In this document: in pieces, positions 42,331 to 63,177 of the stretch | Layout of the letters: the number at the start of each line of letters is the position of its first letter | Numbering within the stretch: the stretch's first letter is position 1 | Virus record (IMG/VR): IMGVR_UViG_3300047198_000026 | Span: 38,593-102,592 of that record | Reading direction: 5' to 3' (one strand) | DNA from: a virus | DNA length: 64,000 nt | Notes under the pieces: model-generated | Seen by the model: only the letters and a program-made list of their open reading frames with translations | What the model was told of the DNA's origin: nothing | Database searches by the model: none | Translations under genes and position numbers: made by a program

Positions 42331-42558
42331 GCCCAGAAAGATATGGCCTATCCTTTTATACTCCCACCATTTTCTCTTCTCAAACTCCTTACACCATCCA
42401 AATTCAGGTTCTAGGTGTTCCACATATGTCATGGAAAGACCACTAGGGTTTAGACGTTCTGCAATTCTCAGCTTGTCACATCTCTCCTGTTTCTCATAAG
42501 AAATCCAATATGTACATTTCCGGCAGTTAACGTGGACCTTATTTTTTGAAATTTCCAT
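42250..42558 (-). CDS. Small Cys-motif/membrane protein with MEISKN start
   Basis: A 102-residue protein. The start MEISKN is the shared N-terminal hexapeptide of this strand. NCRKCTYW with later CDKL and WCKEF form a possible zinc site; the last 40 residues include a membrane segment (YLTYGLWIAFILCLFYN). Its end overlaps the convergent plus gene by 81 bases, so the membrane part lies in dual-coded DNA. The upstream stop lies inside its start element. Confidence 0.6.
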   Translation of the reverse strand: MEISKNKVHVNCRKCTYWISYEKQERCDKLRIAERLNPSGLSMTYVEHLEPEFGWCKEFEKRKWWEYKRIGHIFLGSLYLTYGLWIAFILCLFYNLSRIFWK

Positions 42559-42667
42559 AGGGTTTCTTCCTCTTATAAAATTCTGGATACGATTTCCTTA
42601 ATGACTTCAGAATTTCCTCTGCTGTGGCAGGTTCAGCTACATGTACCTTGGGTTTTATTTTTTTCAT
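42539..42667 (-). CDS. Small basic protein (42 aa)
   Basis: MKKIKPKVHVAEPATAEEIL... is 42 residues, basic at both ends. Its ATG overlaps the stop of the SbcC-like gene (ATGA), and its stop sits inside the MEISKN start of the next gene. This double coupling supports reality despite its size. Function unknown. Confidence 0.6.
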   Translation of the reverse strand: MKKIKPKVHVAEPATAEEILKSLRKSYPEFYKRKKPYGNFKK

Positions 42668-44448
42668 ACTATCCTTGAGATTCCATCCTTGTCTCTTCTG
42701 ACAAAAATCTCATGGTCAAAGGAGCTCTTAAAGACGTCCTGATGACTAATAACAACGATCGTTCCAATCTCTTTCTTCATATCCTTAAGAAGGTCAAGTA
42801 AATCCTCCTGCCCACTCTTATCAATCGATATGTCCAAAACCTCATCCAGTAAGAGAAAGTCAAACGCGTTTACCCCAAGATCCAAGGCCCACCGGCGAAT
42901 GGCAAAGAGCATTACTGCATTTATCCTTGCCCTCTGGCCATCTGACAATCCCCAGTAGTTCACCTTCTGATCGTCCATTTTAATAACAATCTCAATCTCC
43001 TCCCTAAAGGCGCCACTCTTTAATTCCTTTTGGGGGGCAATCTCTAAGGAGAGTCTCTCTGATGTAATTTTAGAGAGATACATATTGGCCAGAAATTGTA
43101 AACGTCCAAAGGCCTTCTCAATGATAAAGGACACTACCCCAGCTTTACTGAATACCCACTTTAGGTAGGAAAAGAGATCAATGTCCTTGGCCACCTGGAC
43201 CTTTCTGGCCTCTAGCATTTGCTGTGAGTTGCCCATTTGTTGGAGGTCCTCCTGCTGTTGTAGGAGGAGTTTATCATAGGGAGATACCTTGGCTTGTTCG
43301 TCAGCAATCTGTTTATTAATGGACTGGATACGCTCTTGAGATGATTTGACGTCCATCTCATACTTCAGCTCCTCCATCTCAATAGACTTGAGCTGCTGTT
43401 GGAGACTAAAGAGGGTATTGGTCATTTCTGTAGCCTTGGCTATTCTATCCCTCTGGGATTTAAGCTCCCTATCATACTTGTTAATCATTCTCTTCCAAGA
43501 ATCCAGTTGGGACTGCATAGCAGCTTTTCCCTGTTGTAGGGGCACACACTGGGAACAATCCTCTATGGGGCCTTTACCCTGCATCAGGTTGAACATATTG
43601 TCATGCTGATTCATCAGGACAGCCCGATCGGCGGACACCATGGCTATTCGCTCATTGGCCTCAGTAATGGTGGGTCCACATTGGGATTCCAAAACAGTGA
43701 CTTGGTTCTTAATATTCTGTTTGACAACGCCAGAGGGAGGACTCCCTGTTATTGATGTATCTCTTCCGTCTTCCAACCCTTTGATCTTGAGGGCTTTGGC
43801 TTCGTCGAACTCATCTTGAGCTTTTCTGTAGGTTGACGCTCTTTCAATCCCTTTCTGGATTTCAGATTTGATTGTTGCCAATCGTCTTTCAATATCGCCG
43901 TATTCGAGGTCGAGGGTGTCGTGGTTTTTACCTGCTTTCTTGTAGGCCTCGTCGATCTTGTCAAGGTTGAGGATACCTTTGAAGAGTTCCTTCTTACTGG
44001 TGTCAGTGGAAGCACCGAGAAACTGAACCTGCCCCTGAGAGAAGGCGGTTGACCTAACAAAGGTGAAGTAATCACTTCTAAAGGTGCTTTCAATGATTCT
44101 CTGAACATCAGTCTTGTTACCAAGTTGTGAAACGCCTCCAATTGAAAAAGCAAGGTTTCGCGGTCCTCGTTCGATAATGTAATCTGTTTTTCCATCAGTT
44201 ACCTCCAATTTAACGTAACAACTGTCTGTTCCCCATCGGACAACATCCTGACCAGTTAGTCCTTTGGTGGTCTTGTTGAAAAGGGCCCAGCAGATGGCTG
44301 AAACAATACTGCTCTTCCCTGACCCATTACTATCCCCATTCTTGTCATTGAATCCAGAAATGAAGTACAGCCCGGGCTTTGAGAAATCGATCGTGGCCTC
44401 CTTGAAAGATAGGAAGTCTTTGATAACAAGGGATTTTAGGTGGAACAT
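42664..44448 (-). CDS. SbcC/Rad50-like recombination ATPase (T4 gp46 type)
   Basis: A 594-residue SMC-like ATPase. The N-terminal half has GDSNGSGKSS (Walker A); about residue 297 is the CSQC zinc hook between long coiled coils; the C-terminus has WGLSDGQRARINAV (signature), FLLLDEVLDI (Walker B) and VVISHQ. With the SbcD-like gene directly upstream (13-base overlap), it forms the nuclease complex that processes DNA ends, as T4 gp46/47 do in recombination-dependent replication. Shorter than bacterial SbcC and near the gp46 size. Confidence 0.93.
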   Translation of the reverse strand: MFHLKSLVIKDFLSFKEATIDFSKPGLYFISGFNDKNGDSNGSGKSSIVSAICWALFNKTTKGLTGQDVVRWGTDSCYVKLEVTDGKTDYIIERGPRNLAFSIGGVSQLGNKTDVQRIIESTFRSDYFTFVRSTAFSQGQVQFLGASTDTSKKELFKGILNLDKIDEAYKKAGKNHDTLDLEYGDIERRLATIKSEIQKGIERASTYRKAQDEFDEAKALKIKGLEDGRDTSITGSPPSGVVKQNIKNQVTVLESQCGPTITEANERIAMVSADRAVLMNQHDNMFNLMQGKGPIEDCSQCVPLQQGKAAMQSQLDSWKRMINKYDRELKSQRDRIAKATEMTNTLFSLQQQLKSIEMEELKYEMDVKSSQERIQSINKQIADEQAKVSPYDKLLLQQQEDLQQMGNSQQMLEARKVQVAKDIDLFSYLKWVFSKAGVVSFIIEKAFGRLQFLANMYLSKITSERLSLEIAPQKELKSGAFREEIEIVIKMDDQKVNYWGLSDGQRARINAVMLFAIRRWALDLGVNAFDFLLLDEVLDISIDKSGQEDLLDLLKDMKKEIGTIVVISHQDVFKSSFDHEIFVRRDKDGISRIV

Positions 44449-45416
44449 AACAACTCCTTGGCTACCTTAATAGCCTCATCTTTGTCAATAATGGTGTTAG
44501 ATTCTTTAATAAAATTTTCTACTGTAACCTCAATGGGTTCCGTTGTCTTCTGCTCGAGACGCACGGGCTCTTCGGCCAATTCGTATTTGACTGTGACATT
44601 GGGTCCAAAGTCAGGTAACACAATTCCCCTCTCCTTTACTACAACTTGGAAATAGGCCCTTGGAGAGTCTTGTATATTCTCTAACATAATATCACAGTCT
44701 TCCTGACTTCCCACTAAGGGAAGTGTCCTGAACTGGGGAGAGTCAATAGGAACAAATTTCATCATAAAGGAATCCTTCAACAGATAGACCCCTTTGTCCT
44801 CTCCAGCATCCCCATGGTTATTCTGCATTACTGATCCAAGATACATAGCAGAACCCCACATCTGCCTCTTATGGATATGCCCTAGAAGTGACATGGTATA
44901 CGTTTGAAAAGACGATACGGCGACTCCCTCAGTTAGGGAGAACCCCAGCCCTGTTTTGGCCCCCATCACTGGCACATGCCCTAAAAGCAGATCGGCTTTG
45001 ATAGGTGGTAAAGGTTGTCCCCAAGGCACCATTACCACACGGTAGCTATCAAATACCACTTCTTTTACAGTGTCTACTACCGCAACTCCACTCATAGACT
45101 TAAACGGCTCGAAGAGGTTAATCCCCCTATGGATATCATGGTTCCCCACGATTAGCCAAACACACTTGGTGTGTTGTCTCAATTTGTCTACAATCCTGTA
45201 GGCTGCATCATAGATAACCTTGGGGAGGGTCTCTCCTAACTGATTGAACAGATCTCCCATGAAGACAATCCTGTCAGCCTGATACTCGTCTGCGACCTCA
45301 CAGACCTTATCTATGACCTTTTCTTGCTCTGCTAGTCTACTGTTGCGCCCATCAGGAAGGGTATAGGAATACTGTCTATATAAATCGATGTGAATATCCC
45401 CGAATAGAAGAATCAT
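44436..45416 (-). CDS. SbcD/Mre11-like nuclease (T4 gp47 type)
   Basis: A 326-residue metallophosphoesterase. The motifs appear in order: GDIHIDLY, FMGDLFN, VGNHDIH, LLGHVP and LGHIHKR. These bind two Mn ions and cut DNA ends. It overlaps the SbcC-like partner gene. GGAGAGAG precedes the ATG. Cytoplasmic, with the partner ATPase on the same transcript. Confidence 0.93.
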   Translation of the reverse strand: MILLFGDIHIDLYRQYSYTLPDGRNSRLAEQEKVIDKVCEVADEYQADRIVFMGDLFNQLGETLPKVIYDAAYRIVDKLRQHTKCVWLIVGNHDIHRGINLFEPFKSMSGVAVVDTVKEVVFDSYRVVMVPWGQPLPPIKADLLLGHVPVMGAKTGLGFSLTEGVAVSSFQTYTMSLLGHIHKRQMWGSAMYLGSVMQNNHGDAGEDKGVYLLKDSFMMKFVPIDSPQFRTLPLVGSQEDCDIMLENIQDSPRAYFQVVVKERGIVLPDFGPNVTVKYELAEEPVRLEQKTTEPIEVTVENFIKESNTIIDKDEAIKVAKELLCST

Positions 45417-45426
45417 TTCTCTCTCC

Positions 45427-45621
45427 TTATCCTGGAAACCAGGACAGATTACTCTTTCGTTTGCTGGGCACTTTTAAACTGGGTTCCTTCGTTGGCTTCA
45501 GGGGTTTAATCCCAATGTCTGGAGCCTTCATCCCAAGTTTGGGCATCTTAAAACTGGGAATCTTTAAGTCCTTTGGTTGTTTTACCTTAGGCATCCTTAA
45601 TGATAATCCTTTAGTTTTCAC
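45427..45621 (-). CDS. Lys/Pro-rich repetitive small protein
   Basis: A 64-residue, strongly basic protein made of repeated K-x-P-x-x-K-x-P phrases (KIPSFKMPKLGMKAPDIG). GTG start nine bases after AAGGAGG. The sequence looks disordered and could bind nucleic acid. The likeness to eukaryotic AHNAK repeats is probably compositional. Lies directly upstream of the SbcD-like gene. Confidence 0.6.
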   Translation of the reverse strand: MKTKGLSLRMPKVKQPKDLKIPSFKMPKLGMKAPDIGIKPLKPTKEPSLKVPSKRKSNLSWFPG

Positions 45622-45635
45622 CTTTCTTCACCTCC

Positions 45636-46049
45636 TTATACTATCTCAATAGTAACTTCCCCTTCTTTAAGGCCATCCTGTAATTTGGTCAGGAAGGCAT
45701 TAAATGCATCTCTACTGTGTTCAATGAAGTCATCATCCTCTTTGGTTCCCAAAAGCACGCAACCTTCTGTGTCCTCTGGCCGGTTGCCAATGTGAATTCG
45801 GATACCTTCGAAGCAGGGAACATTTTCTATTAAAGGCATGGCTTTCCCGAAATGAGGGGAATAAGTAATATCAATAGTGTAATTTCCCCTAGGGATACAG
45901 GTTTCCCCATAGACCTTTGCAGAGCAGCCATTGTCCTCGATCTTCCGATCCGTGTCCTCAAGGGTGTGACACTCAAACTCCCCATCTATGGAGAGGTCCC
46001 CCAAGGTGCTCCTATCTGTGAATGTATGTCTCTCAAGTTTTAATTCCAT
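45636..46049 (-). CDS. DUF5675-family protein
   Basis: A 137-residue protein with the family's landmarks: TDRSTLGDLSIDGEFECHTLED, IPRGNYTIDITYSPHFG, GIRIHIGNRPEDTEGCVLLG and SRDAFNAFLTKL. Function of the family is not established; it is frequent in phages and near lysis or tail genes. The ATG at 46049 has GGAG nine bases upstream; one three codons earlier is too close to it. Confidence 0.85.
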   Translation of the reverse strand: MELKLERHTFTDRSTLGDLSIDGEFECHTLEDTDRKIEDNGCSAKVYGETCIPRGNYTIDITYSPHFGKAMPLIENVPCFEGIRIHIGNRPEDTEGCVLLGTKEDDDFIEHSRDAFNAFLTKLQDGLKEGEVTIEIV

Positions 46050-46254
46050 CTTTCTCATCTCCTATCAAAACAGCTAAATCCTCAGATGCAACATGGAATC
46101 CGGAATCGAACCACGAGCCCCCTTCCCTAATGCAGCGTTCAGACTTTGATTGTCCCTTAAGACAAAAAACCCTATTGCCTTTCCTTCCCATGTGCCTACA
46201 CTTAGAGCACTTATCGCCAAAAAACTTCTGAGTCATTTCTACGGTAGCTTTCAT
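46033..46254 (-). CDS. Small Cys-rich protein
   Basis: A 73-residue protein with CSKCRHMGRKGNRVFC and a later C, a likely zinc knuckle. A Met at residue 7 is an alternative start. GGAGGG is 12 bases before the first ATG. Overlaps both neighbours. Belongs to the group of small Cys proteins typical of this strand. Confidence 0.6.
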   Translation of the reverse strand: MKATVEMTQKFFGDKCSKCRHMGRKGNRVFCLKGQSKSERCIREGGSWFDSGFHVASEDLAVLIGDEKDGIKT

Positions 46255-46441
46255 GGTTTCTTGTTTCCCTCCTTATGTCATCAAAGATTCGTAGTGCCCT
46301 GTCGTAGTCTAGATAGAGTTGTTCCCTCTTAAATCGATCTATTTCTTTGACCAGATCAAAGCACATCTTCCAGTTAGGACAGTTCTGGATCCCACAGAAG
46401 ATACAAAAGTCATCAAACCGCTCATTTGGACTTAGTTCCAC
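46211..46441 (-). CDS. Small Cys-rich protein with MELSPN start (GTG)
   Basis: A 76-residue protein. The GTG start is chosen because GGAGG lies seven bases upstream and translation then opens with MELSPN, the common hexapeptide. FCIFCGIQNCPNWKMC forms a CxxC-type zinc site; the rest is a basic helix (RFKREQLYLDYDR). The upstream stop lies inside the start element. Confidence 0.65.
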   Translation of the reverse strand: MELSPNERFDDFCIFCGIQNCPNWKMCFDLVKEIDRFKREQLYLDYDRALRIFDDIRRETRNHESYRRNDSEVFWR

Positions 46442-46538
46442 ACTCAGACCTCCATATACATTCCGAACAGTGGTACGTAAATCCTTGATCAATCCACAGT
46501 TGGTATTTGCACGTAACTAGATTAGGACTTAGTTCCAT
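46422..46538 (-). CDS. Very small Cys protein with MELSPN start
   Basis: A 38-residue protein: MELSPNLVTCKYQLW then YHCSECIWRSEC. GGAGG precedes the ATG, and the shared hexapeptide fixes this start rather than an upstream in-frame ATG. Stop and start codons interlock with both neighbours. Confidence 0.6.
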   Translation of the reverse strand: MELSPNLVTCKYQLWIDQGFTYHCSECIWRSECGTKSK

Positions 46539-46761
46539 CTCGCCTCCACTCTCTCCATCCATACAGGTCAAAGAAAATGTAGAATAGCCAGATGACCGCT
46601 GACCCCCAGTCAGGTCTGAGAAAGATAAAATAATAGGAGAACCCAAAAGCAGTTCCCTCCCAGACTAACCAGCAGTAGTCATTTTTCTTGATGTTCAGAA
46701 AACACCCAAAGATAGATATGGCTGAGAAAAGCCACGGCCAAATTTTAATTATCAAGTCCAT
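46522..46761 (-). CDS. Small membrane protein, PnuC-like fragment
   Basis: A 79-residue protein with two or three membrane segments (WPWLFSAISIFGCFL; GTAFGFSYYFIFL; AVIWLFYIFFDLYGW). FDLYGWREWRRD resembles the terminal YGWxxW motif of PnuC nicotinamide riboside transporters, but it is about a third of their length. May be a stand-alone miniature relative. Role unknown. Confidence 0.6.
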   Translation of the reverse strand: MDLIIKIWPWLFSAISIFGCFLNIKKNDYCWLVWEGTAFGFSYYFIFLRPDWGSAVIWLFYIFFDLYGWREWRRDGTKS

Positions 46762-46765
46762 ATTC

Positions 46766-46864
46766 TTATCCTAATACCCCAAAAACCTTTAGGGCAATTA
46801 AAAGGGTAACTGCTGTGCTCAAGATAGCAGCTAGAGTTCTGATGAGTTCAAGTCTCTTTTTCAT
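46766..46864 (-). CDS. Tiny membrane protein (32 aa)
   Basis: MKKRLELIRTLAAIL followed by a hydrophobic stretch STAVTLLIALKVFG. AAGGAG lies seven bases before the ATG, a near-ideal site. It has the positive-inside N-terminus of a single-pass membrane miniprotein. Stop is four bases before the next start. Function unknown. Confidence 0.55.
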   Translation of the reverse strand: MKKRLELIRTLAAILSTAVTLLIALKVFGVLG

Positions 46865-46875
46865 CACTCTACTCC

Positions 46876-47378: not shown

Positions 47379-47385
47379 TTTCTCC

Positions 47386-49412: not shown

Positions 49413-49413
49413 G

Positions 49414-50088
49414 TTAAATACTCGTATTTGAATGCCGTTTGAACTTGTAGACCTTTAGGTAGAGAGCTTTTAGGTCTTTAACATCCTTCTCACAATGGTC
49501 CATGATATAGGATAGGGCGGTTTTATCTCCTTGGATGGCCCGAATCCAGTATGTGGCAAACCAGTTAGTCTTCATTGAAGCTCCCACAAGAAACCTTGAG
49601 GCATTAACCAAGCGATTGCTACTTAAGGCAAACTTATATTTGATGATGGGCCAAACGTCCTCCATAGCACATTCCCCATATCCTGGAAAGTCTAGATCCT
49701 GTGAGACAGCTCGACTTCTTAAAAATGGGATATCAAACTTTCCATCTGACGAATAGAATCCGATCAGCCTGTCATATTCCCTGACATCCCGACAGAAATC
49801 TTTCATCACCCCATAGTCAGGTTGGTGCTTCTTATCATAGAGCTCCCCTTTCGAAACTATCCTAGAGGTGATCTTCTCTGTATTCAAATCAAGAAGTGCA
49901 TAGCATATCACCACCCCAAAGTCAGCTTTCAAGTTGGACGCCTCTATATCTACGATAGCCGTGCGTTCCATACTTGGGTTTTCTCGTACATAACAATTTG
50001 GGTGTTGGAGATACTGTATCCCATGAGCATGGCAGCGATGGGCTGACATCCACACTATTTCTACCTTCTTTAAGCGCGCAATGTTCAT
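49414..50088 (-). CDS. DEDD-type 3'-5' exonuclease
   Basis: A 224-residue RNase H-fold exonuclease. IVDIEASNL has the first D-x-E; FYSSDGKFDIPFL is the ExoII motif; YIMDHCEKDVKDL is the ExoIII region. The first 40 residues, with CHAHG and HPNC, may add a zinc site. GAGGAG is eight bases before the ATG. Separate from the polymerase's own exonuclease; likely for DNA trimming or recombination. Confidence 0.82.
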   Translation of the reverse strand: MNIARLKKVEIVWMSAHRCHAHGIQYLQHPNCYVRENPSMERTAIVDIEASNLKADFGVVICYALLDLNTEKITSRIVSKGELYDKKHQPDYGVMKDFCRDVREYDRLIGFYSSDGKFDIPFLRSRAVSQDLDFPGYGECAMEDVWPIIKYKFALSSNRLVNASRFLVGASMKTNWFATYWIRAIQGDKTALSYIMDHCEKDVKDLKALYLKVYKFKRHSNTSI

Positions 50089-50270
50089 TAGATTAACTCC
50101 TCTATAAACGTGACCTTTTTGGTTTTGATTTCCTTAAGTTCATAGATGCCAACCTTCTTGTCACTCTCAATGTTTTCCATCCTCTCATTGGCTAACAAGA
50201 ACCTCTCGTCTTTCTCCCCTTCCCAGTTGACATAAATTGTCTTTGGAAATTCCTTTTTAGATATGCTCAT
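50088..50270 (-). CDS. Small hypothetical protein
   Basis: A 60-residue protein starting MSISKKEF, a variant of the shared N-terminal motif. GGAGGAAGAG precedes this ATG, so the in-frame GTG 54 bases earlier is rejected. Strand-rich acidic protein (TIYVNWEGEKDERFLL). The 111 bases upstream contain no other supportable gene. Confidence 0.65.
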   Translation of the reverse strand: MSISKKEFPKTIYVNWEGEKDERFLLANERMENIESDKKVGIYELKEIKTKKVTFIEELI

Positions 50271-50381
50271 AACTCTTCCTCCTTTCATTCTCATATTGTG
50301 ATTGCTTTTCTCTCGTCCATCCACTACTAAAATGTGTCACAGACCATCAACCTCCATTTATATTTTCCCCTTACCCACTCC

Positions 50382-50609
50382 TCAGCTTTCGCCTACATCC
50401 TTTGGTTTAAAACTTCCACAACACCCATCATTCTCTTCCATATAACCAAAATGGTACCTAACCCGATCCCACTCCTGAAAGTGCTCAACAGTTCCCGTCC
50501 GGAGCGTTGTATGCAGTTTAGCTCCACACATAGGGAGAGTATGATAAATTCCAACAAAGTGCCTACATTCCTTACAAGATGTTACGGTCTCATTCTTACT
50601 TATTTCCAT
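50382..50609 (-). CDS. Small Cys-rich protein with MEISKN start
   Basis: A 75-residue protein: MEISKNETVTSCKECRHF, then MCG and GCCGSF, a probable zinc-binding fold with C-x2-C and CC. It begins on the last base of the SSB gene stop. It shares hexapeptide and first Cys spacing with the start of the DNA polymerase and other small genes on this strand. Confidence 0.7.
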   Translation of the reverse strand: MEISKNETVTSCKECRHFVGIYHTLPMCGAKLHTTLRTGTVEHFQEWDRVRYHFGYMEENDGCCGSFKPKDVGES

Positions 50610-53483: not shown

Positions 53484-53484
53484 A

Positions 53485-53757
53485 TTAATCTCCCCACTTT
53501 TTACTTGACTTTCTACTTGGTCCGAAATGTTTCACATCCCACTCCCACATGTCTGTAATTGCTTCCTCAAACTCCCAATCAGCCTGGAGAACGCACTGTA
53601 TTAGGAACACCGGTCCCAAAAACATGACTGCTGCTAATTCTATAATAAGTAGAATTGGAAGGATTAAGAACACGATCCCCAATACCCACCTAAGGATGCT
53701 CTTCTTCCAGTCATACTCCCTCCACCATTTAGGTTCTTGATTTTCACTTATCTGCAT
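53485..53757 (-). CDS. Membrane protein with MQISEN start
   Basis: A 90-residue protein. The start MQISENQEPKWWREYDW resembles MEISENREPTMWRIF at 57703, so they are related. Two joined hydrophobic segments (WVLGIVFLILPILLIIEL; MFLGPVFLIQCVL) and a charged tail follow. The upstream gene's TGA sits within the start element, in the +2 frame. Confidence 0.7.
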   Translation of the reverse strand: MQISENQEPKWWREYDWKKSILRWVLGIVFLILPILLIIELAAVMFLGPVFLIQCVLQADWEFEEAITDMWEWDVKHFGPSRKSSKKWGD

Positions 53758-54105: not shown

Positions 54106-54330
54106 TTATTCTTTTTTCTCCCTTAAATCTTCCACTACTATCGCTTTTGCTCCCTCTTTCCTCTCATAGGTTATATGCCACTCATCGGTGCGGAGTTCTC
54201 GTATGGAAAATGAGACCATGCTCTCAACTAACCTACCTATTTCATGATTCTCCCCAATGACAATCCTCTTGTAGCTTTCCCAGTCATTACGGTCCTTAAA
54301 GACCCTAATCTTATTCGTAGACTTTTCCAT
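54106..54330 (-). CDS. Small hypothetical protein with MEKSTN start
   Basis: A 74-residue protein, MEKSTNKIRVFKD, a variant of the shared hexapeptide with Lys at position 3. Strand-rich, with charged C-terminus. AAAGGAGG precedes. It overlaps the end of the sigma-like gene. Function unknown. Confidence 0.65.
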   Translation of the reverse strand: MEKSTNKIRVFKDRNDWESYKRIVIGENHEIGRLVESMVSFSIRELRTDEWHITYERKEGAKAIVVEDLREKKE

Positions 54331-54589
54331 CCAAACTTTCCTCCTTCCTATATGACGATTCCCGTGAATACCCCAATCTCCTTAAATACTTCCTCATAGC
54401 GTCCTTCTCAACTGCATATCGGTAGGCAGGATTCTCTATTTCCTTTCTAGACTTAGACATCTCATAGACCTTAATCACCGCTTCCTGGATAAGATCCTCT
54501 CTATGTGACGCAGCTGCTGCATTCTTTCTATAGAGACTTTTGTAGGTTGACCTACATTCTTTGTAAAGACTATCAAGGTCTGTAAGCAT
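54311..54589 (-). CDS. Sigma-70 region 2-like small protein
   Basis: A 92-residue helical protein. SHREDLIQEAVIKVYEMSK is the region 2.1-2.2 helix; YAVEKDAMRKYLRRLGYS resembles region 2.3-2.4, which melts DNA and reads the -10 element. No region 4 is present. GAGGAG is eight bases before this ATG; an in-frame GTG nine bases earlier is less likely. Could steer host RNA polymerase. Confidence 0.6.
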   Translation of the reverse strand: MLTDLDSLYKECRSTYKSLYRKNAAAASHREDLIQEAVIKVYEMSKSRKEIENPAYRYAVEKDAMRKYLRRLGYSRESSYRKEESLDGKVYE

Positions 54590-54687
54590 TTCGAACACTC
54601 CTCACACTTAAACATAACCCCCCTGCTCTTCTTCCACTTTAGTAATTCAGGGAATTCACATTGTCTTAGGTTAGGACTTAATTCCAT
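54475..54687 (-). CDS. Small Cys protein with MELSPN start, overlapping sigma-like gene
   Basis: A 70-residue protein, MELSPNLRQCEFPELLKW then MFKCEECSKC (zinc-like). Its second half is read from the start of the sigma-like gene in another frame, a 115-base overlap. The shared hexapeptide and interlocked upstream stop (TAA in the +2 frame) support the start; the end is less sure. Confidence 0.55.
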   Translation of the reverse strand: MELSPNLRQCEFPELLKWKKSRGVMFKCEECSKCLQTLIVFTKNVGQPTKVSIERMQQLRHIERILSRKR

Positions 54688-54847
54688 TTGTTTCCTCTAC
54701 TCCCCATCCTCGCCTTTTCCTCTCTCCTAACTCACACCCACCTTCTTTCCTATATATGCAGTCCTTACAACTCACTCCGAAGAAGTCAGGGAAAGAACCC
54801 CTTGGATTTTGGACTATACAGAAAACATCATTAGGGCTTAATTCCAT
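54671..54847 (-). CDS. Small Cys protein with MELSPN start (58 aa)
   Basis: MELSPNDVFCIVQNPRG..., then GVSCKDCIYRKEGGCELG, a likely zinc site with CxxC. The start follows the stop of the gene upstream without a gap (TAA-ATG), and its own stop lies inside the MELSPN start of the next gene. Ser4 uses AGC here. Confidence 0.6.
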   Translation of the reverse strand: MELSPNDVFCIVQNPRGSFPDFFGVSCKDCIYRKEGGCELGERKRRGWGVEETNGIKS

Positions 54848-55033
54848 TTAGTACACCTCATTGAATCTTCTACATTCCTTATGTATATAATACTTTCGTG
54901 GGGTGAGGGTTAAAAAACCACCATGCTTTATTATCCAGTCCGTACTCACTGGAACTTTGAACGATGGATCCTCGTCATCCCTCCACGAATTGTCATGGAC
55001 TAAGAAGTATCTTGTGTTAGGACTTATTTCCAT
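54848..55033 (-). CDS. Small protein with MEISPN start
   Basis: A 61-residue protein, MEISPNTRYFLVHDN, basic and strand-rich, ending RRFNEVY. Its start is inside the end of the DNA polymerase gene (17-base overlap; polymerase stop in the +2 frame of the hexapeptide element). No family recognised. Confidence 0.65.
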   Translation of the reverse strand: MEISPNTRYFLVHDNSWRDDEDPSFKVPVSTDWIIKHGGFLTLTPRKYYIHKECRRFNEVY

Positions 55034-57449
55034 TCACTGTCACCAATTCCCCCCAGTTAGGCCCGATGGCCACATCCACTTCCAAGGGCATCTTGAAATC
55101 TGGAAGATAGTCCTGAAAGTAGGACAGCATCACATCTTTGATCTGACCAATAAGATCAAGCTCAGACCTGTGTATGTTACACACAATACTATCATGTACT
55201 TCCAGAGTGAGAAATGACTTTCGTCCAGTAAGCAGAAGGTCAATACCAATAAGGGAATATAAAAGAATATCACTAGCCAAGGATTGAACAGGAAAGTTAA
55301 TAGCTTCACGGAAATTTTTCTCCTCTAACGCTTCCCATGAGGGAAAGCGCCTTCTCCGGCCTGTCATACTATAGACATAGCCATTCTGATTTACATAGTC
55401 TCTAATTTTGTTCATCCACTCTTGGACTTTCCAATAGGCCATAAAGAACTTTGCTAGATAGTTCTTAGCCTGATCTTCCGAACAACCCAGCCGTTCTTTG
55501 ATTCCCCAAGGGGACATCCCATAGATAATCCCAAAGTTGAAGGTTTTACCTATCAACCTCCTCTGCTCGGAAGTTACATTCTGGGGATTGATACCCAGGA
55601 TGTTGGCTGTTGTGGCCGTGTGGACATCTCCAGACAACAAGGCCTTCTTCAAGTTGTCATCCCCACTAAGTTCTGCCATCACTCTCAGCTCATGCTGATT
55701 AAAATCAAACTCTGCCAATACGTAGTCAGGGTCGGCGATGAAACAATTTCTGATGGCCACAATGTCCTTGTCTCCCTTTGGAATGTTCTGGAGGTTGGGC
55801 TTCCTTGAACTGGTTCTACCCGTCACTGTCTCTGTGAGCCAATATTGTGTGTGTATCCTGTTGTCTGGAGTCATATAATCCCGAAGTTCCTTAATAAAGG
55901 TCTTTGACATCTGATTGTATAAGGAGTACTCATACAGAAGTTTACATAGGTTAGAAGTATCCTTATACTTCTCTAAAACCTCTTGGTCAGTGGATGGTTG
56001 CCCCGTCTTGTCTGTAAACTTAAATGGAGTTAACCCCTCATACTTGTAGAGTATCTCCCTGAGCTGTGTGTGGGAATTGGGGTTAAACATCTCCCCAGAC
56101 ACCTTTACGTAGGCGGCCACTGACATCTCCTTCTGGAGTTGAGACAGAAGCGTGGATATTTGGGCTGCCACCAATCCATCGGCTGCATTGACTTTTGCTT
56201 CATCAATCAAGATTCCTTTGGCCTCTAACCTACACAGAACGTCACTAACAGGCATCATAAGTGTCTTCATAACATTCTGTAATCCCGGATCCATTCTCTT
56301 TGACTGCTCTGGTTGTATCCTACTGACAAGGTCAGTATCGATCGCATTGTAGTCCCACAATTCTTGTCCATCTACCAAATGGGGCTTGTCGGGAAGTTTG
56401 TTCTCATATCCTCCAAGTCTTGAATACTTCCAAGCCATATCCTTTAGATTGGTGCTACCTGATTTTGGAAGAAGGAACTCAGCAATCTTGGTGTCCCACA
56501 TAGACGATTTGACATCAATCTTTAGTATCTGCTTCATCCACATATTATCGAACTTGATGTTCTGTCCCATCTTGCCAATGCGTTTGGACTCAAACAGATA
56601 CTTAAGATCAAGGTAGAGCTCATCCCATTCCTTAGCTGTCCACACAGGAACATTCACAGACACTTCATGCTCTTCCATGACCGTGGTCTTAATCTGAGTT
56701 ATAGGAAGGACATATGCTATCCTGGGTGCAGTGGAAAATCCTATACACTTGATGACCATGTCAGGGGCAAAGGGATTGAGCCCATTGGTTTCAATGTCAT
56801 AGGCAAATTTGTTCTTTAAATGAGAATACAAGACAGCACTCTTGAAAGCCCGCCATTGCTCAATGGTCTTTATGACTGTGTATACCCCTTTATCTTTGGG
56901 GTCTGTCAGTTGACCACTAAGGATGATTGGGATCCTGTCAATATGGTCATAGAAAGTCTTAAGCTCCTCCTGATTTCTCAGGATGTAGGCCGGATGTAGG
57001 ATGGGCATAACCTTGTACTTCCCATATGTGAATTCATGCCCACTCTCCTTGGTTATGCCAGTGGTGCCCAGAATTGCCTTCAATGAGATGTTGCCAACTG
57101 CCACTATCAATTTGAGATTGGGCATCTCCCTTATCTCATCTTCGAAATGGGGCCAGCAGGCCTTGACCTCAGATGCCTTGGGATTCCTATTGCCAGGAGG
57201 ACGGCACTTGACAATATTTGTAATCCTGACCTTAATATTCTGAGGGAGCTGTAAGAGTCCCTCTCGCAAAAGTTTTCCAGCCCTACCCACAAAGGGTTTT
57301 CCCTGAGAATCTTCGTCACCACCCGGGGCCTCACCCGCAATCAACACCTCTGCGTCAATAGGTCCGTCTGCCTGAATAAAGGGAGTCTTAACCCCGTTAC
57401 ACAGGTCACAATTGTAACACGATTTGATTACATTTTGAGATATGTCCAT
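55017..57449 (-). CDS. DNA polymerase I-type enzyme with N-terminal uracil-DNA-glycosylase domain
   Basis: An 810-residue fusion. Residues 10-165 are a family 4/5-like UDG: C11, C14, C17, C82 and C98, GEAPGGDED, KCRPPGNRNP and HPAYILR at 152-158. The 3'-5' exonuclease follows with D218-I-E220, NIKFD (297-301) and YNAIDTD. The polymerase domain has motif A D582-F-N-Q-H-E-L-R589, motif B R630, K635, F639, Y643 and motif C H752-D-S754, where family A normally has HDE. The start MDISQN is the shared hexapeptide. It has no 5'-3' exonuclease. Main replicative polymerase candidate, with built-in uracil recognition. Confidence 0.93.
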   Translation of the reverse strand: MDISQNVIKSCYNCDLCNGVKTPFIQADGPIDAEVLIAGEAPGGDEDSQGKPFVGRAGKLLREGLLQLPQNIKVRITNIVKCRPPGNRNPKASEVKACWPHFEDEIREMPNLKLIVAVGNISLKAILGTTGITKESGHEFTYGKYKVMPILHPAYILRNQEELKTFYDHIDRIPIILSGQLTDPKDKGVYTVIKTIEQWRAFKSAVLYSHLKNKFAYDIETNGLNPFAPDMVIKCIGFSTAPRIAYVLPITQIKTTVMEEHEVSVNVPVWTAKEWDELYLDLKYLFESKRIGKMGQNIKFDNMWMKQILKIDVKSSMWDTKIAEFLLPKSGSTNLKDMAWKYSRLGGYENKLPDKPHLVDGQELWDYNAIDTDLVSRIQPEQSKRMDPGLQNVMKTLMMPVSDVLCRLEAKGILIDEAKVNAADGLVAAQISTLLSQLQKEMSVAAYVKVSGEMFNPNSHTQLREILYKYEGLTPFKFTDKTGQPSTDQEVLEKYKDTSNLCKLLYEYSLYNQMSKTFIKELRDYMTPDNRIHTQYWLTETVTGRTSSRKPNLQNIPKGDKDIVAIRNCFIADPDYVLAEFDFNQHELRVMAELSGDDNLKKALLSGDVHTATTANILGINPQNVTSEQRRLIGKTFNFGIIYGMSPWGIKERLGCSEDQAKNYLAKFFMAYWKVQEWMNKIRDYVNQNGYVYSMTGRRRRFPSWEALEEKNFREAINFPVQSLASDILLYSLIGIDLLLTGRKSFLTLEVHDSIVCNIHRSELDLIGQIKDVMLSYFQDYLPDFKMPLEVDVAIGPNWGELVTVNGNKS

Positions 57450-57457
57450 AGTTCCTC

Positions 57458-57703
57458 CTACATATTCCTGCCAATAGCATATGCTATTACATTAAGTAAA
57501 ATGAATCCAATTATATACAATGACCACCATAGGCTGTGGTGAATAGCATACCAAAGTCCGTACATTGCTCCGCCAATAGCGGCTGAACAAAGCAGCACAG
57601 TTCCGACTATTGCCCATCCAGTGCCCAATATAACTAGTTTCTCCTTAAATCCCTCCTTAAATATTCTCCACATGGTTGGTTCTCGATTCTCACTTATTTC
57701 CAT
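57458..57703 (-). CDS. Membrane protein with MEISEN start
   Basis: An 81-residue protein, MEISENREPTMWRIF, then two membrane segments (GTGWAIVGTVLLCSAAIGG; WSLYIIGFILLNVIAYA). The start is ATG, five bases after AGGAGG, overlapping the upstream stop; a TTG one codon earlier is too close. Related to the protein at 53485-53757. Function unknown. Confidence 0.7.
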   Translation of the reverse strand: MEISENREPTMWRIFKEGFKEKLVILGTGWAIVGTVLLCSAAIGGAMYGLWYAIHHSLWWSLYIIGFILLNVIAYAIGRNM

Positions 57704-58341: not shown

Positions 58342-58377
58342 CGTACCTCCTTCTCCTTTGGAGACCAGTGATCAAAG

Positions 58378-58560: not shown

Positions 58561-59003
58561 TTTACCTCCTTATAGATCTTAAGAACTTTATTGCAGTATC
58601 GTTGGTTTCTTCCTCCTTGAGAGTATCTTGTTTCCCCCATACTATAAGCCTGAATACCCCCCCGAAGTCCATACTTCTGTATCATATCGCTTAGATACCG
58701 ACTTCCGATATGAATGTTTGCAATAGGATCATATAGGTCTGAAATCTGAATCCCATTCTGTCTGGCATGAAATTCGGAAAGTTGCATCAGTCCGTGCCAT
58801 CTGCCCTTACCTCCTCTTGCCCTGTGGTTAAGTTCGGATTCTACTATGGCCACAGCCTTAACCAGTCTCCAGTCGATATTTGATACAGAATGGGCCTCAA
58901 ACAGATAGTCCTGTAACTTCACGTTATAGGTTGGGCAATCCAGTCTGATGGGCAACAAGACAGAGATCAGGCCCAGAGCTCCTAGGACGAGAAGTTTAAT
59001 CAT
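58557..59003 (-). CDS. Lytic transglycosylase (SLT domain)
   Basis: A 148-residue protein. A signal- or anchor-like N-terminus (LLVLGALGLISVLL) is followed by the SLT domain: VKAVAIVESELN with catalytic Glu55, HGLMQLSEFHARQNG, PIANIHIGSRYLSDM and AYSMGETR. It cuts peptidoglycan glycan strands. It is separate from the plus-strand lysis cassette, so may act in virion entry or lysis. Confidence 0.9.
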   Translation of the reverse strand: MIKLLVLGALGLISVLLPIRLDCPTYNVKLQDYLFEAHSVSNIDWRLVKAVAIVESELNHRARGGKGRWHGLMQLSEFHARQNGIQISDLYDPIANIHIGSRYLSDMIQKYGLRGGIQAYSMGETRYSQGGRNQRYCNKVLKIYKEVK

Positions 59004-59308
59004 CTGGTCTCCTCTAGCCGTTCAATCATCTCCTCCTCAGGATCCTCTCCTGCCACATCATATATCTCACCAAAGGACACTATGACCTTACTCCTAGCAT
59101 AGGCCGTCTTGGACAACTTTTTATACATATTTTGTAAGGCGATGCACATCCACTCCTCTGGCTTGTCTGGGTATCTAGAATACAGAGACAGGGCAAATCG
59201 GTATCCATCTTGAACCAAGTCTTCATACTCCAACTTGAGATTCCTCTTCTGGGAAATCCTTCTGGATTTGGCTTTAATTATTGCCTCAACATTTGGGGTT
59301 AATATCAT
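59000..59308 (-). CDS. Sigma-70 region 2-like small protein
   Basis: A 102-residue helical protein. KLEYEDLVQDGYRFALSLY and EEWMCIALQNMYKKLSK resemble sigma region 2; the tail is acidic (GEDPEEEMIERLEE). No region 4. The start MILTPN is a divergent copy of the shared hexapeptide (Thr for Ser). Overlaps the lytic transglycosylase gene by four bases. Confidence 0.55.
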   Translation of the reverse strand: MILTPNVEAIIKAKSRRISQKRNLKLEYEDLVQDGYRFALSLYSRYPDKPEEWMCIALQNMYKKLSKTAYARSKVIVSFGEIYDVAGEDPEEEMIERLEETR

Positions 59309-59320
59309 ACTATATCCTCC

Positions 59321-59533
59321 TTACTTAATCCACTCCGCTATCTTTAGCATCGCTTGGATCTTTTCTCCTCCCATATCCTTATACGCTTTCAGGTATGCCC
59401 TTACGTCTTTCTTACTTCTAAGAAGCATCGCGTTGTTAATATCAAGATCTCCCGCTGTTACTACAATATATTTGTACCGCAGGCGTTCAATCTTGTGGTC
59501 AAAACCAAAGCTGCAATCATATTCTGGTTTCAT
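59321..59533 (-). CDS. Small hypothetical protein
   Basis: A 70-residue protein: MKPEYDCSFGFDHK, a YKYIVVTAGDLDINN strand-turn, then an amphipathic helix (AYLKAYKDMGGEKIQ). Four-base overlap with the end of the primase-helicase gene. No family recognised. Confidence 0.65.
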   Translation of the reverse strand: MKPEYDCSFGFDHKIERLRYKYIVVTAGDLDINNAMLLRSKKDVRAYLKAYKDMGGEKIQAMLKIAEWIK

Positions 59534-61233
59534 GTTATATCCTCCTCTACTCTTGCTATTTCATCATGGAACCTTAGATGACAGGCGCCACCTGCTGCGT
59601 ATCGGATTCGATCCACATTCACCAGACAGGATGGCTCAAAGACTCCTTCGAAGGAGGGGTTGTCTCCCTCTGTTCTATTCTTCTCTTCTCTATGTAGAAT
59701 AATGACAGCATCACTGTCTGCCTCAATATCAGCAGACCACATCAAGTCTTCAGAAGTCATTCTCCTGTTTCTAGCCCTATAGGATGGTCTCGCTATAATC
59801 AAGATGGGAATTGACAATTCCTCAGCCAACAACTTAAAGCTCTGAGTTAAGGCTGAAATCTCCTGTGTCATGGACTCGGCCTTCCTTGCTAAGAAATGCA
59901 GATTGTCAAAGGCTACAAACCCAATGTTATATCTACGAACACAACTCCTGATCGTATCTGCTATGAATGTCCACTCAACCCTATGATAGGGATGGGCAAA
60001 GTAGAAGGGAAGCTCTGCCAAGTCCTTATAGGCAGTTGCCAAATCCTCCATGTTGTTTGAGTCAGACTTTCGGAGGTGTAAGGATACAATTCGGGGCAGC
60101 ATCCTCTCTGGAGGCATTTCTAATTCAAACAGTAATGCTGGTATTCCCTTTTTGGCAATATGATACATTAGATTAAAGGTGAACGTTGTCTTCCCCACCT
60201 TGGGTTTTGAGGCAATACACCACAGGTCTCCCGGCTTCATGCGTCCTGTCAGTTTGGAAAGGGATGGCCAAGGAAACTCTATACCATCCTCCTCTTCTCC
60301 AAGATTCAACTTGCGGATAACATCCTGCATGACTCGAGCTAAGGGTCTTACGGACTCCACATCAAACTTTTCAGCCTTACCTTTTAACTCCTGAAAGTCC
60401 GACAGGCCGTGACTCCTCAGATAATCATTGACATCCTTGAATCCAATTGGAAGTCGGATATTATAGGTTCTCTCAATTCCCAGACGGGAGGCCAGTTTGG
60501 CAGCCCCCATTTGGCCAGGCTCATCTGAGTCATAGGCTATATATATTTTGGCCACCTTATCCAGTTGGACAATCCACTCGGGTTTGATTCCTTGGGCTCC
60601 GATAGGAACCCCGACCACATTGGTTATACCCACTGACCACAAAGCAAGGGCATCTGACTCTCCCTCACAAATGATTATCTCATCGGGATTTATGGCATCC
60701 TCATTAAATAGGATGGAGGGTCCACCAGCATGGCGCTTGAACTGCTTCTCTGGAGGCAATGTCCTCTTCTTTACATTGAGGATTTTATCCTTTCTCCAGA
60801 AAGGATACCATATCCAAGTCTTCTCTTCTTCAATGGATACCCCTAACTTAAAGTAAGATATGGCTTTCTCAGAGAAATGTCTATGCTGTAAGTATCTAAG
60901 AGCTTTTGGTGTGGCAAGTAGATCCTTATGGGCTTCCTCAACCTCTGGCATTAAGTCCACATCCACTTCTGTCTTGGGGATTAGGTCATGAAATGCCTGT
61001 ACCTCTTGGATGTCTTTTAGTAATCCCTTTAGAGTAAACAGGCTTCCTGCCTCCCCACACTTGTGGCAAAACCACTGTCCGGTTTCCATTGCCATATAGA
61101 AGTGTGTTCCCCCCTGATCACCGCAGAGAGGACATCGTTTCAGTAGAGCCTGATCCCCTTTATCTGAGGAGACGACCTTATACTCCCAGCCTTTTCTAGT
61201 TAGATACTCTAAGACTATTTGTTTAGTTATCAT
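59530..61233 (-). CDS. Primase-helicase (T7 gp4-like)
   Basis: A 567-residue two-part enzyme. Residues 34-59 form the zinc-binding domain (CPLC ... FCHKC); the TOPRIM primase core has IIICEGESDALA (E190) and YIAYDSDEPG (235-240). The C-terminal DnaB-type helicase has SKPKVGKTT (342-350), LLFELEMPPERM, FVAFDNLHFLA and IIARPSYRARN. It unwinds and primes the lagging strand at the fork. AGGAGG precedes the chosen ATG; an in-frame ATG 36 bases earlier lies inside the previous gene. Confidence 0.92.
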   Translation of the reverse strand: MITKQIVLEYLTRKGWEYKVVSSDKGDQALLKRCPLCGDQGGTHFYMAMETGQWFCHKCGEAGSLFTLKGLLKDIQEVQAFHDLIPKTEVDVDLMPEVEEAHKDLLATPKALRYLQHRHFSEKAISYFKLGVSIEEEKTWIWYPFWRKDKILNVKKRTLPPEKQFKRHAGGPSILFNEDAINPDEIIICEGESDALALWSVGITNVVGVPIGAQGIKPEWIVQLDKVAKIYIAYDSDEPGQMGAAKLASRLGIERTYNIRLPIGFKDVNDYLRSHGLSDFQELKGKAEKFDVESVRPLARVMQDVIRKLNLGEEEDGIEFPWPSLSKLTGRMKPGDLWCIASKPKVGKTTFTFNLMYHIAKKGIPALLFELEMPPERMLPRIVSLHLRKSDSNNMEDLATAYKDLAELPFYFAHPYHRVEWTFIADTIRSCVRRYNIGFVAFDNLHFLARKAESMTQEISALTQSFKLLAEELSIPILIIARPSYRARNRRMTSEDLMWSADIEADSDAVIILHREEKNRTEGDNPSFEGVFEPSCLVNVDRIRYAAGGACHLRFHDEIARVEEDIT

Positions 61234-61484
61234 TCGTCCTCCTGAACAGAGGTTATGTCTTTTACCCACTGTTTACATTTCAGTAATGCCTCTTGTGAAG
61301 AGGGAACAGTAGCGTCCACCATAACCTCATGCACGCTAAAGTTGGTATCTTCTGTATAGGCCATGACTCTGGCTCCACCAATAAATGAATAGACTTGAAA
61401 GTGGTTGACGCTTGACATGTTAAGGCAATAGGTTCCAGTGGTATCCCAAATCCACTGGATGCGCTTGTTCTTAGACTTTTCCAC
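61230..61484 (-). CDS. Small protein with MEKSKN start (GTG)
   Basis: An 84-residue protein. The GTG start is set by GAGGAGG six bases upstream and gives MEKSKN, a variant of the common hexapeptide; the upstream stop lies in its +2 frame. Mostly strands (FQVYSFIGGARVMAYTED) with a helical end (SQEALLKCKQWVKD). ATGA overlap with the primase-helicase gene. Possible replication accessory. Confidence 0.65.
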   Translation of the reverse strand: MEKSKNKRIQWIWDTTGTYCLNMSSVNHFQVYSFIGGARVMAYTEDTNFSVHEVMVDATVPSSQEALLKCKQWVKDITSVQEDE

Positions 61485-61662
61485 TTGATTCCTCCTCAAC
61501 TATCTTACAATCTCCTCTATACTCTCTTGGTCTATGGGGTCCGTTTGGACAGGATTTTAGACACACCTCAGTGAACTCATGTTCGAACTTGTGTCGACAT
61601 CCCCCCAACCTACAAGTCTCCAGGTTGACACATCGAAACAGCCTATTCCTTGACAGTTCCAT
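61471..61662 (-). CDS. Small Cys-rich protein with MELSRN start
   Basis: A 63-residue protein, MELSRNRLFRCVNLETC, then LGGCRHKF and CLKSCPNGPH, probably zinc-binding. Ser4 is TCA here while most copies use AGT, and the upstream TAG is inside the start element. Confidence 0.65.
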   Translation of the reverse strand: MELSRNRLFRCVNLETCRLGGCRHKFEHEFTEVCLKSCPNGPHRPREYRGDCKIVEEESSGKV

Positions 61663-62197
61663 TCAACTTCTCCTTAAACCGTAATAGGGAATCTGTAGGG
61701 CTCCTTCCAAGTAAGTGAAACTTTGCCAACACATATTCCACATCCTCAAGAAGCTTGGCCCTCTCCTTAGGATCGTTAGGAGCTTTCTGGCCTCGGGCTT
61801 TCAAAAGTAGAGAGTAGGCCCGACTGTCCTCCTGCACTGGCCTCTTGACTTTGTCCAGAGAATATACTCGTCCTGTGGCCACCACATAAAATGAATCTCT
61901 AGCCTCATTAAGGAGGTAAGGTATGGCCATAGCCACTCTCTTTCTGGCATACCTCTTGATAGCATTGTCTGTCACCAAATGCTCTGGTGAGGGAAAGAGG
62001 GGGATACACTTACAGGCGTCTATCTGGCAATTAATGTAACCAGCGTAGTCCCCTCCTATATCGTCCACTATTTGGGCTGCCTTCTCAAGGAGTTCATAGT
62101 CAGGGGTTCCTGGCTTTGGCTTCCTCATATACTTCTGCTTATACCATAGCTTTTTGGCAGTGATATATAAGTGAATAAAATATTCAGTGTCAGGCAT
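61643..62197 (-). CDS. Hypothetical helical protein next to primase-helicase
   Basis: A 184-residue protein, MPDTEYFIHLYITAKKLW, helix-rich, with INCQIDACKCIP and a central ARKRVAMAIPYLLNEARD helix. GGAG is four bases before the chosen ATG; a longer in-frame start is inside the previous gene. Its place in the replication cluster suggests a helicase loader or accessory, without motif proof. Confidence 0.65.
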   Translation of the reverse strand: MPDTEYFIHLYITAKKLWYKQKYMRKPKPGTPDYELLEKAAQIVDDIGGDYAGYINCQIDACKCIPLFPSPEHLVTDNAIKRYARKRVAMAIPYLLNEARDSFYVVATGRVYSLDKVKRPVQEDSRAYSLLLKARGQKAPNDPKERAKLLEDVEYVLAKFHLLGRSPTDSLLRFKEKLNGTVKE

Positions 62198-62417
62198 CTG
62201 ACTCCACCCTTTTACATTTTGATTCTTCACATTCTATTGTTCCACATCCTCTCCGTAATGTATATTTAGGATTGCCATTCACTGGATTGATGTAGGTAAA
62301 ACACCAAGCTGTTGGAAGGTGGACACCCATATGTAGACAATCTTTAAGCTTACCACGAGTCTCTTTGCATTTTCCTGATAAGGAACATCGATATTTGGAG
62401 TTCTTACTTATTTGCAT
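62190..62417 (-). CDS. Small Cys-rich protein with MQISKN start
   Basis: A 75-residue protein, MQISKNSKYRCSLSGKC, then DCLHMGVH, WCFTYINP and RGCGTIECEESKC. Layout matches the protein at 62404-62610, so they are tandem paralogues. The first Cys occurs four residues after the hexapeptide, as in several siblings. Confidence 0.7.
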   Translation of the reverse strand: MQISKNSKYRCSLSGKCKETRGKLKDCLHMGVHLPTAWCFTYINPVNGNPKYTLRRGCGTIECEESKCKRVESDA

Positions 62418-62610
62418 GGGTTACCTTCTTACATGGATGACTCGTACACCTCTCAATTCCGTCCCCTCTCTGGGAAAAGTGAAGTCCGTTTCGAAAACCC
62501 CGAAACCGAAAACACAGATTGTCTGGCGTGTGGGGGTTTCCATGAATGCAAAACTTTCCACAAGTCTTAGATATAGGGCATTGGTACTTAACGTTTTCAC
62601 TTATTTGCAT
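62404..62610 (-). CDS. Small Cys-rich protein with MQISEN start
   Basis: A 68-residue paralogue of the preceding entry: MQISENVKYQCPISKTC, KFCIHGNPH, NLCFRF and CTSHPCKK. Start set by the hexapeptide; the upstream gene's TGA falls 11 bases into it. Likely metal-binding; function unknown. Confidence 0.7.
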   Translation of the reverse strand: MQISENVKYQCPISKTCGKFCIHGNPHTPDNLCFRFRGFRNGLHFSQRGDGIERCTSHPCKKVTHANK

Positions 62611-62719
62611 ATCGTCGCATCCATACGTTATAGTCAGACACAAAGTAACTGGGAAAGGAATGGCTCACCCATCCCATCCTCCAAAAGCTATAGTAGATGT
62701 CATTCTCACTTATTTGCAT
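62597..62719 (-). CDS. Very small protein with MQISEN start
   Basis: A 40-residue protein, MQISENDIYYSFWRMGW, aromatic-rich, no cysteines. Upstream in-frame ATGs exist but the shared hexapeptide and interlocked stop of the upstream gene favour this start. Confidence 0.55.
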   Translation of the reverse strand: MQISENDIYYSFWRMGWVSHSFPSYFVSDYNVWMRRYANK

Positions 62720-62879
62720 GCCGAACCTCATACCTTCTGTCCTTATGTTTAACCCCCTTATATTCCTTCCAAATGCCACTCTCTTGTGTCCACACAAGGC
62801 AGTTGCCACTAGGTCTGCCTTCAGGACATCTAGGTGTCTTTGGCTTAGTGGTCAGTATGTCTTCAATTTTATGGTCCAT
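62706..62879 (-). CDS. Small hypothetical protein (57 aa)
   Basis: MDHKIEDILTTKPKTP..., with RCPEGRPSGNCLVW as a possible metal site, ending in a basic stretch. GGAGGG is 11 bases before the ATG. Its TGA lies inside the MQISEN start of the next gene. Coupling supports expression. Confidence 0.55.
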   Translation of the reverse strand: MDHKIEDILTTKPKTPRCPEGRPSGNCLVWTQESGIWKEYKGVKHKDRRYEVRHANK

Positions 62880-63177
62880 TTTTTAGTTTTCCCTCCTTCA
62901 ATTCCTGTGGTGATGGATGAACAGTTTGCCAACCTTTGCCTGACCATTGGCCAGAAATGGTTGAACAATAGATGTCATGTTTCTCCAATAGGAGACAATG
63001 GAGCTTCATGAGTAGACCATTGGTTTTACACCTCTTGTCACAAGGATTCATCGAAGTTTTGTAACAACATCTTACATATCCCTCAACTTGATAGATCAGA
63101 GGGTGCTCTCCTGATCCTGGAGAAATATAATCGCCCTCATAAAATAACAATTTTCGTCTATTCTTGGATAATTGCAT
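62869..63177 (-). CDS. Small Cys-rich protein with MQLSKN start
   Basis: A 102-residue protein, MQLSKNRRKLLFYEGD, then VRCCYKTSMNPCDKRC and LHCLLLEKHDIYC. Ser4 is TCC, a codon two changes away from AGT, so the hexapeptide is kept at the protein level. It follows the tRNA gene by 16 bases. Confidence 0.65.
   Translation of the reverse strand: MQLSKNRRKLLFYEGDYISPGSGEHPLIYQVEGYVRCCYKTSMNPCDKRCKTNGLLMKLHCLLLEKHDIYCSTISGQWSGKGWQTVHPSPQELKEGKLKNGP

Follow-up and report, generated by a model that had tools for sequence, protein, structure and literature searches.

Terminal signals in phages and protein compartments

The internal proteins IPI–IPIII of phage T4 are diverse, with conservation confined to an N-terminal capsid-targeting sequence (CTS) (PMC3012670), and the DarB protein of phage P1 likewise carries an N-terminal packaging signal (PMC9024508). 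In both phages, a foreign protein can be directed by the N-terminal signal alone (PMC3012670, PMC9024508). Herein, we describe a six-residue N-terminal tag in another virus, an uncultured phage known from the 102,592-bp IMG/VR record IMGVR_UViG_3300047198_000026. The window (the whole stretch of DNA analysed, 64,000 nucleotides long; G000:C1:38593-102592) is part of this record, and the tag, with the consensus M-[EQ]-[IL/K]-S-[K/E/P]-N, stands at the extreme N-terminus of many of the encoded proteins. Gene starts are predicted ones throughout.

The likeness to the T4 and P1 signals lies in a short N-terminal peptide set on otherwise diverse, fast-changing phage proteins and, presumably here too, read at the peptide level. 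A conserved N-terminal peptide on diverse phage proteins, the hallmark of a T4-type CTS, is indeed what we find (44 genes, falling into 35 BLAST clusters). The tag differs in having six residues, in marking about 44 proteins that include a DNA polymerase and membrane proteins, and in leaving the structural operon untagged. The T4 CTS is the closest known case, and the same principle may be at work here.

Two other systems invite comparison. Encapsulins and bacterial microcompartments load diverse cargo by means of short terminal peptides that dock it, and these are usually longer amphipathic helices or C-terminal. The tag described here, on the other hand, has six residues, most of them polar, and this phage has no known shell protein. 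In the phage nucleus of the Chimalliviridae, PicA-dependent import selectively gathers replication proteins at one site in the infected cell (PMC11087766). Such a gathering would be the point of likeness; a difference is that typical nucleus-forming phages are twice as large as this one. We know of no common linear N-terminal hexapeptide in phage-nucleus import.

Extent and distribution of the tag

An earlier note, made from the sequence of the window alone, had listed 15 gene starts with the tag. All 15 carry M/V-[EQD]-[IL]-S-x-N as it stated, with the one at 46441 using GTG. A six-frame search of the window with the expression [MVL][EQDKN][ILVM][ST]xN returned exactly these 15 genes as its ATG or GTG matches, and the remaining five matches begin with non-start codons. 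Of the four variants that had been proposed in addition, those at 54330 (MEKSTN) and 61484 (GTG start, MEKSKN) keep Ser4 and Asn6, whereas those at 59308 (MILTPN, with Thr4) and 50270 (MSISKK, lacking Asn6) do not. At the DNA level, the degenerate pattern ATGSANNTNWSNNNNAAY is matched 14 times in the window, each time at a true start, where 1.0 is expected and none of 100 shuffles reaches 14.

The tagged set is larger than the window suggests. Across the 102.6-kb record, 44 genes (of at least 30 aa) start with M-[EQDK]-x-S-x-N, exceeding the earlier count, and the positions vary more widely than first described (Lys also occurs at position 2; Met, Lys, Arg, and Thr also at position 3). Many of the further tagged genes lie on both strands of the left arm of the record (L005). 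Six of them are plus-strand genes (L005 17483, 17707, 17828, 18377, 18579, and 18896), so the claimed absence of the tag from plus-strand genes is true inside the window and fails for the record as a whole.

In automatic gene calls, made blind to the motif, 25 of 88 genes carry the tag in the two non-structural arms and none of 69 does in the structural operon; the boundary is sharp and follows the module. Untagged genes in these calls show Ser4 or Asn6 only near background level. Because some short bearers are missed by automatic calling, we merged the calls with the tagged open reading frames, giving 99 arm genes (43 tagged). Over these, the tag score is two-peaked (47 genes at 0–2, 43 at 6–7, and 9 between); the presence of the tag is all-or-none.

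Chance and common descent

In an unsupervised scan of all residue pairs at positions 2–10 after the start, Ser4–Asn6 comes out on top, occurring in 25 of 159 automatic calls where 0.41 are expected (p ~1e-36). Scanned in the same way, three other phage records have best pairs of only 1e-5 to 1e-7, uncorrected for testing, and short relatives gave nothing stronger than that.

When the first seven residues are removed, BLAST sorts what is left of the 44 bearers into 35 clusters. Nine of the bearers can be aligned as a single Cys/His family in which Met1, Ser4, and Asn6 never vary, four make up a CINGSLC family, and several further paralogous pairs are visible by eye. We also counted as generously as possible, taking all bearers with at least four Cys (the polymerase excepted) as a single family and merging the two visible low-Cys pairs. 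This lumping still leaves 14 groups (P ~2e-23). The two outcomes that the earlier note had named as fatal to its idea, counts at chance level after correction for paralogy and full-length homology of all bearers, are thus not what is found. Chance is ruled out by the start-position scan, the paralogy-corrected probability, and the shuffles of the DNA pattern, and a single homologous family as the full explanation by the 35 clusters, the 14 lumped groups, and the polymerase orthologue discussed below.

Common descent has nonetheless contributed. The description of the bearers as unrelated proteins holds for many of them and is too strong for the rest, as Cys-rich proteins, some of them remote paralogues, make up over half of the 44. 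Cys content is elevated in the bearers (5.2% vs 2.5%, p 3e-4). Moreover, adjacent bearers resemble each other more than random pairs do, with p 0.002 for codons and p 0.018 for bodies, an effect to be expected if genes were duplicated locally.

Conservation of the peptide rather than the DNA

Among the 44 tagged genes there are 43 different 18-mers. Codons 2–6 have a mean nucleotide identity of 0.584, against 0.577 +/- 0.008 after random synonymous recoding of the same peptides, and Ser4 is drawn from both codon boxes (AGY in 24 genes and TCN in 20), even within one paralogous family (e.g., AGC and TCA in the neighbours at 13946 and 14091). The peptide, and not the DNA, is thus what is conserved. 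Asn, Gln, and Pro codons in the tag match genome usage, and nucleotide conservation beyond what the peptide requires is confined, across the 44 genes, to two codon biases: Ile3 is ATA in 17 of 19 cases and Glu2 is GAA in 21 of 24. As the actual tag codons fold less than random synonyms (p 0.001), these biases fit selection against structure near the start. The folding energy of the start-region RNA is the same in bearers and untagged neighbours (p 0.55), and the DNA upstream of the bearers shows nothing except a Shine-Dalgarno-like peak. The claim of the earlier note that selection acts on the peptide is thereby strongly supported, namely by the identity under recoding, the switches of Ser4 box within families, and the unremarkable folding.

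The gene junctions, along with the two codon biases and the low folding of the tag codons, could speak for a cause in the nucleic acid itself, i.e., a translation element, a stop-start junction of overlapping genes, or a cassette recombination joint, with the peptide as by-product. Of 43 bearers, 22 share 14, 17, or 20 nucleotides with the gene before them and none shares 4, the usual overlap, which occurs in 15 of 53 untagged neighbours. Overlaps of at least 8 nucleotides are enriched in bearers (Fisher p 5e-5), and in most bearers a shifted-frame stop lies inside the motif. We infer that the codons for Ser-Lys/Glu, Pro-Asn, and Asn-Arg/Lys/Glu tend to create such shifted stops. Ser4 is kept where only residues 6–7 form the stop and Asn6 is kept where only residues 4–5 do, while bearers with gaps of 77–152 nucleotides or an overlap of 1 nucleotide have the peptide unchanged. 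For both reasons, the overlaps look like a consequence of the peptide.

The bearers, the polymerase, and its relatives

Bearers are mostly short Cys-rich orphans, joined by membrane proteins and one large enzyme, and searches of the bearers with Pfam, PHROGs, and PADLOC gave only weak single matches. Untagged genes include those for RecA, a primase-helicase, SbcCD, an SSB-like protein, a MazG-like protein, and an AAA+/VWA pair (the SSB-like protein and the pair named from Pfam, the others from reading of the sequences). Since these are untagged, and since some bearers open a plus-strand operon that continues into structural genes, the suggestion that the tag marks early proteins is only partly right.

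The large enzyme is the DNA polymerase, a fusion of a family-4 uracil-DNA glycosylase (UDG), a 3'-5' exonuclease, and a family A polymerase. The closest relative of the phage that covers this region is L004, in which the polymerase is 49% identical and several other genes are shared. This phage has the tagged N-terminus MDISQNVIKSC and the L004 orthologue the untagged MATKKVIELTC; where the orthologue has its own N-terminus, the polymerase of this phage has the tag instead. L004 itself holds a single plausible start with Ser4 and Asn6, MSVSEN at L004:10484, which has a good Shine-Dalgarno sequence and occupies the position after the MazG-like gene that the tagged gene at 53757 has in the window, with a different body. 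The tag or its seed may therefore predate the split from L004, and it has expanded in this lineage. An AlphaFold model of the polymerase, built from a shallow alignment of 7 sequences, gives residues 1–10 a predicted local distance difference test (pLDDT) score of ~33 and the UDG domain that follows mostly > 80; the tag is predicted to be a flexible, unfolded tail. For the Cys/His family, the AlphaFold model (mean pLDDT 60) was too poor for use. As a side observation, an N-terminal fusion to a family-4 UDG (window 55017-57449) is present in similar form in many phage polymerases found by search.

Three DNA-pattern scans of IMG/VR gave at least 185 stretches. They recovered the same phage (L026/L051/L214, with 1 single-nucleotide polymorphism in 15,973 bp), and among the matches listed no other contig has more than three loose tag matches. 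Isolated matches include lysozyme-like and peptidase-like starts (e.g., MQISKNGLNLIISFEGL). Relatives by the terminase (L027/L028, 60–67%), of which mainly the structural side is covered, carry no tag, and a scan of genome contigs gave only a 27% terminase match, in a metagenome-assembled genome of the Patescibacteria.

A proposed docking or sorting signal and its alternatives

A strictly terminal, all-or-none, sequence-specific, and apparently unfolded peptide on different folds looks like a short linear docking or sorting motif. Our preferred reading, to which we give slightly less than even confidence, is that the tag docks or sorts about 44 non-structural proteins at the peptide level and is kept by selection on the peptide. 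Of the functions floated in the earlier note, a targeting, stability, or compartment signal would fit such a tag. If the chain is extended, its residues 2, 4, and 6 (acidic or amide, Ser, and Asn) would share one side and might be read, together with the terminus at the start Met, by one cytoplasmic receptor; the charged segment before the transmembrane helix of the tagged membrane proteins suggests a topology with the N-terminus inside. Such a receptor, encoded by phage or host, would bring together, at one place or in one complex, the polymerase, some membrane proteins, and the small Cys-rich accessory proteins. In the lineage, the tag could have spread in two ways, with tagged genes being duplicated and existing proteins having their N-terminus replaced. 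Somewhat more tentatively still, we propose a proteome-wide address with a dedicated reader, which would bind M-[EQ]-x-S-x-N and gather or process the ~44 otherwise unrelated non-structural proteins, and which new genes could join by acquiring six codons. The same operons offer candidate readers by adjacency: the AAA+ and VWA/DUF2201 pair, a 327-aa orphan (L005:6728-7711), and an M28-family metallopeptidase.

Should the tag indeed serve docking or sorting, it would amount to a phage version of the peptides that target proteins to organelles, and its reader would show where and with what dozens of phage orphan proteins work. Even if it acts in stability or processing instead, the presence in one virus of a six-residue N-terminal motif on many unrelated proteins, with its codons randomised, is apparently undescribed in the searchable literature: we found no precedent, in the open-access literature searched, for a phage that marks so many of its non-structural proteins with such a tag.

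Several points weigh against the docking or sorting reading. RecA, the primase-helicase, and the SSB-like protein are important replication proteins and lack the tag; the bearers comprise both membrane and soluble proteins, and a single place must fit both. The tag is found in one phage lineage only (two near-identical contigs), so there is no independent replication, and the partial paralogy of the Cys-rich bearers means that part of the sharing is descent. The polymerase model has only its shallow alignment behind it, and the reader, the location, and the partner of the tag are hypothetical.

Descent could also account for most of the sharing. Most bearers would then come from one small Cys-rich gene that was duplicated many times, its copies diverging until no longer recognisable and keeping the N-terminus best; the tag would be a functional site of the family and no general signal. 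The nine-member Cys/His and four-member CINGSLC families, the likeness of adjacent bearers, and the high Cys content are all in keeping with such a relic. We still consider it unlikely, if deserving of a serious hearing, as bodies low in Cys, among them the UDG-polymerase and the membrane proteins, do not belong to that family, 14 groups survive the most generous lumping, and the L004 orthologue shows that the tag was added to, or replaced the N-terminus of, a protein already there.

The tag might alternatively set half-life or be the target of an aminopeptidase or protease, such as the phage's own metallopeptidase of the M28 family or its AAA+/VWA pair. It includes the start Met, followed by Glu, Gln, Asp, or Lys, before which Met is normally retained by Met-aminopeptidase; the M28-family gene follows three tagged genes, and the AAA+/VWA pair is located among tagged genes. 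These enzymes are linked to the tag by adjacency only, however, the motif is unlike known N-degrons, and one fate would have to be common to very different proteins, so we judge a stability or processing signal quite improbable.

Equally improbable, if not a touch more so, is packaging into the virion as with the T4 CTS, where small tagged proteins would be carried in the head, injected, and act on the host at once. The precedents of T4 and P1 and the fact that most tagged proteins here are small, variable orphans speak for it. The tagged polymerase and membrane proteins and the untagged structural module argue against membership in the T4-type class, a scan of ten proteins (mostly head genes) recognised no prohead protease, and no obvious cleavage site was recognised within the six residues. 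The nucleic-acid cause set out above is very improbable, the codon, overlap, upstream-DNA, and RNA-folding results together ruling out a DNA repeat, recombination joint, or RNA element as the main cause.

Tagged genes of the window

All tagged genes of the window lie on the minus strand. At one end, MEISKN opens a 102-aa protein with a Cys motif and a transmembrane-like C-terminus (42250..42558). A Cys-rich pair follows: (V)MELSPN with a GTG start (46211..46441, 76 aa) and MELSPN in a gene that overlaps the upstream one by 17 nucleotides (46422..46538, 38 aa). The next bearers are a 75-aa CxxC protein (MEISKN, 50382..50609) and, in the slot after the MazG-like gene that MSVSEN occupies in L004, a 90-aa membrane protein (MQISEN, 53485..53757).

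Around the polymerase (MDISQN, 55017..57449), the bearers are densely packed. The first 17 nucleotides of the gene for a 61-aa protein at 54848..55033 (MEISPN) overlap the 3' end of the polymerase gene. Two Cys-rich genes with MELSPN come next to it, of 58 aa (54671..54847) and 70 aa (54475..54687), the latter overlapping its upstream tagged gene by 17 nucleotides. They are accompanied by a 74-aa protein of the subtype with Lys3 (MEKSTN, 54106..54330), and an 81-aa membrane protein (MEISEN) lies at 57458..57703.

A last group begins with a second Lys3 protein of 84 aa, (V)MEKSKN with a GTG start (61230..61484). Three members of the Cys/His family (A5) lie at 61471..61662 (MELSRN, 63 aa), 62190..62417 (MQISKN, 75 aa), and 62404..62610 (MQISEN, 68 aa), and the group is completed by a 40-aa protein without Cys (MQISEN, 62597..62719) and a Cys-rich one of 102 aa (MQLSKN, 62869..63177). 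The near-misses MILTPN (59000..59308, 102 aa, Thr for Ser) and MSISKK (50088..50270, 60 aa, no Asn6), also on the minus strand, are not counted as tagged.

Neighbouring genes

In the left arm, the M28-family metallopeptidase gene (L005:19360-19938, Pfam E 6e-8) comes directly after three tagged genes. At the sensitivity used, 50,697 other phage records yielded no match to its product, and IMG/VR yielded none beyond the same phage. The VWA/DUF2201 putative metallopeptidase (L005:8275-9456) lies beside a MoxR-like AAA+ ATPase (L005:9664-10716) in a tagged operon, and a tagged Cys-rich gene begins at the stop codon of each of the two. Four tandem paralogues at L005:3708-4823 contain C[IV]NGS[LI]C, three of them also CTRxxGHxGxHVAC, and are likely to be small metal-binding proteins.

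An odd 695-aa protein with acetyltransferase-like and tape-measure-like stretches is encoded between terminase and portal (L006:5765-7852). Finally, the boundary between the minus- and plus-strand operons of the left arm (L005 14.4-17.0 kb), which has little called coding sequence at ~15.3-16.2 kb, is possibly a control region.

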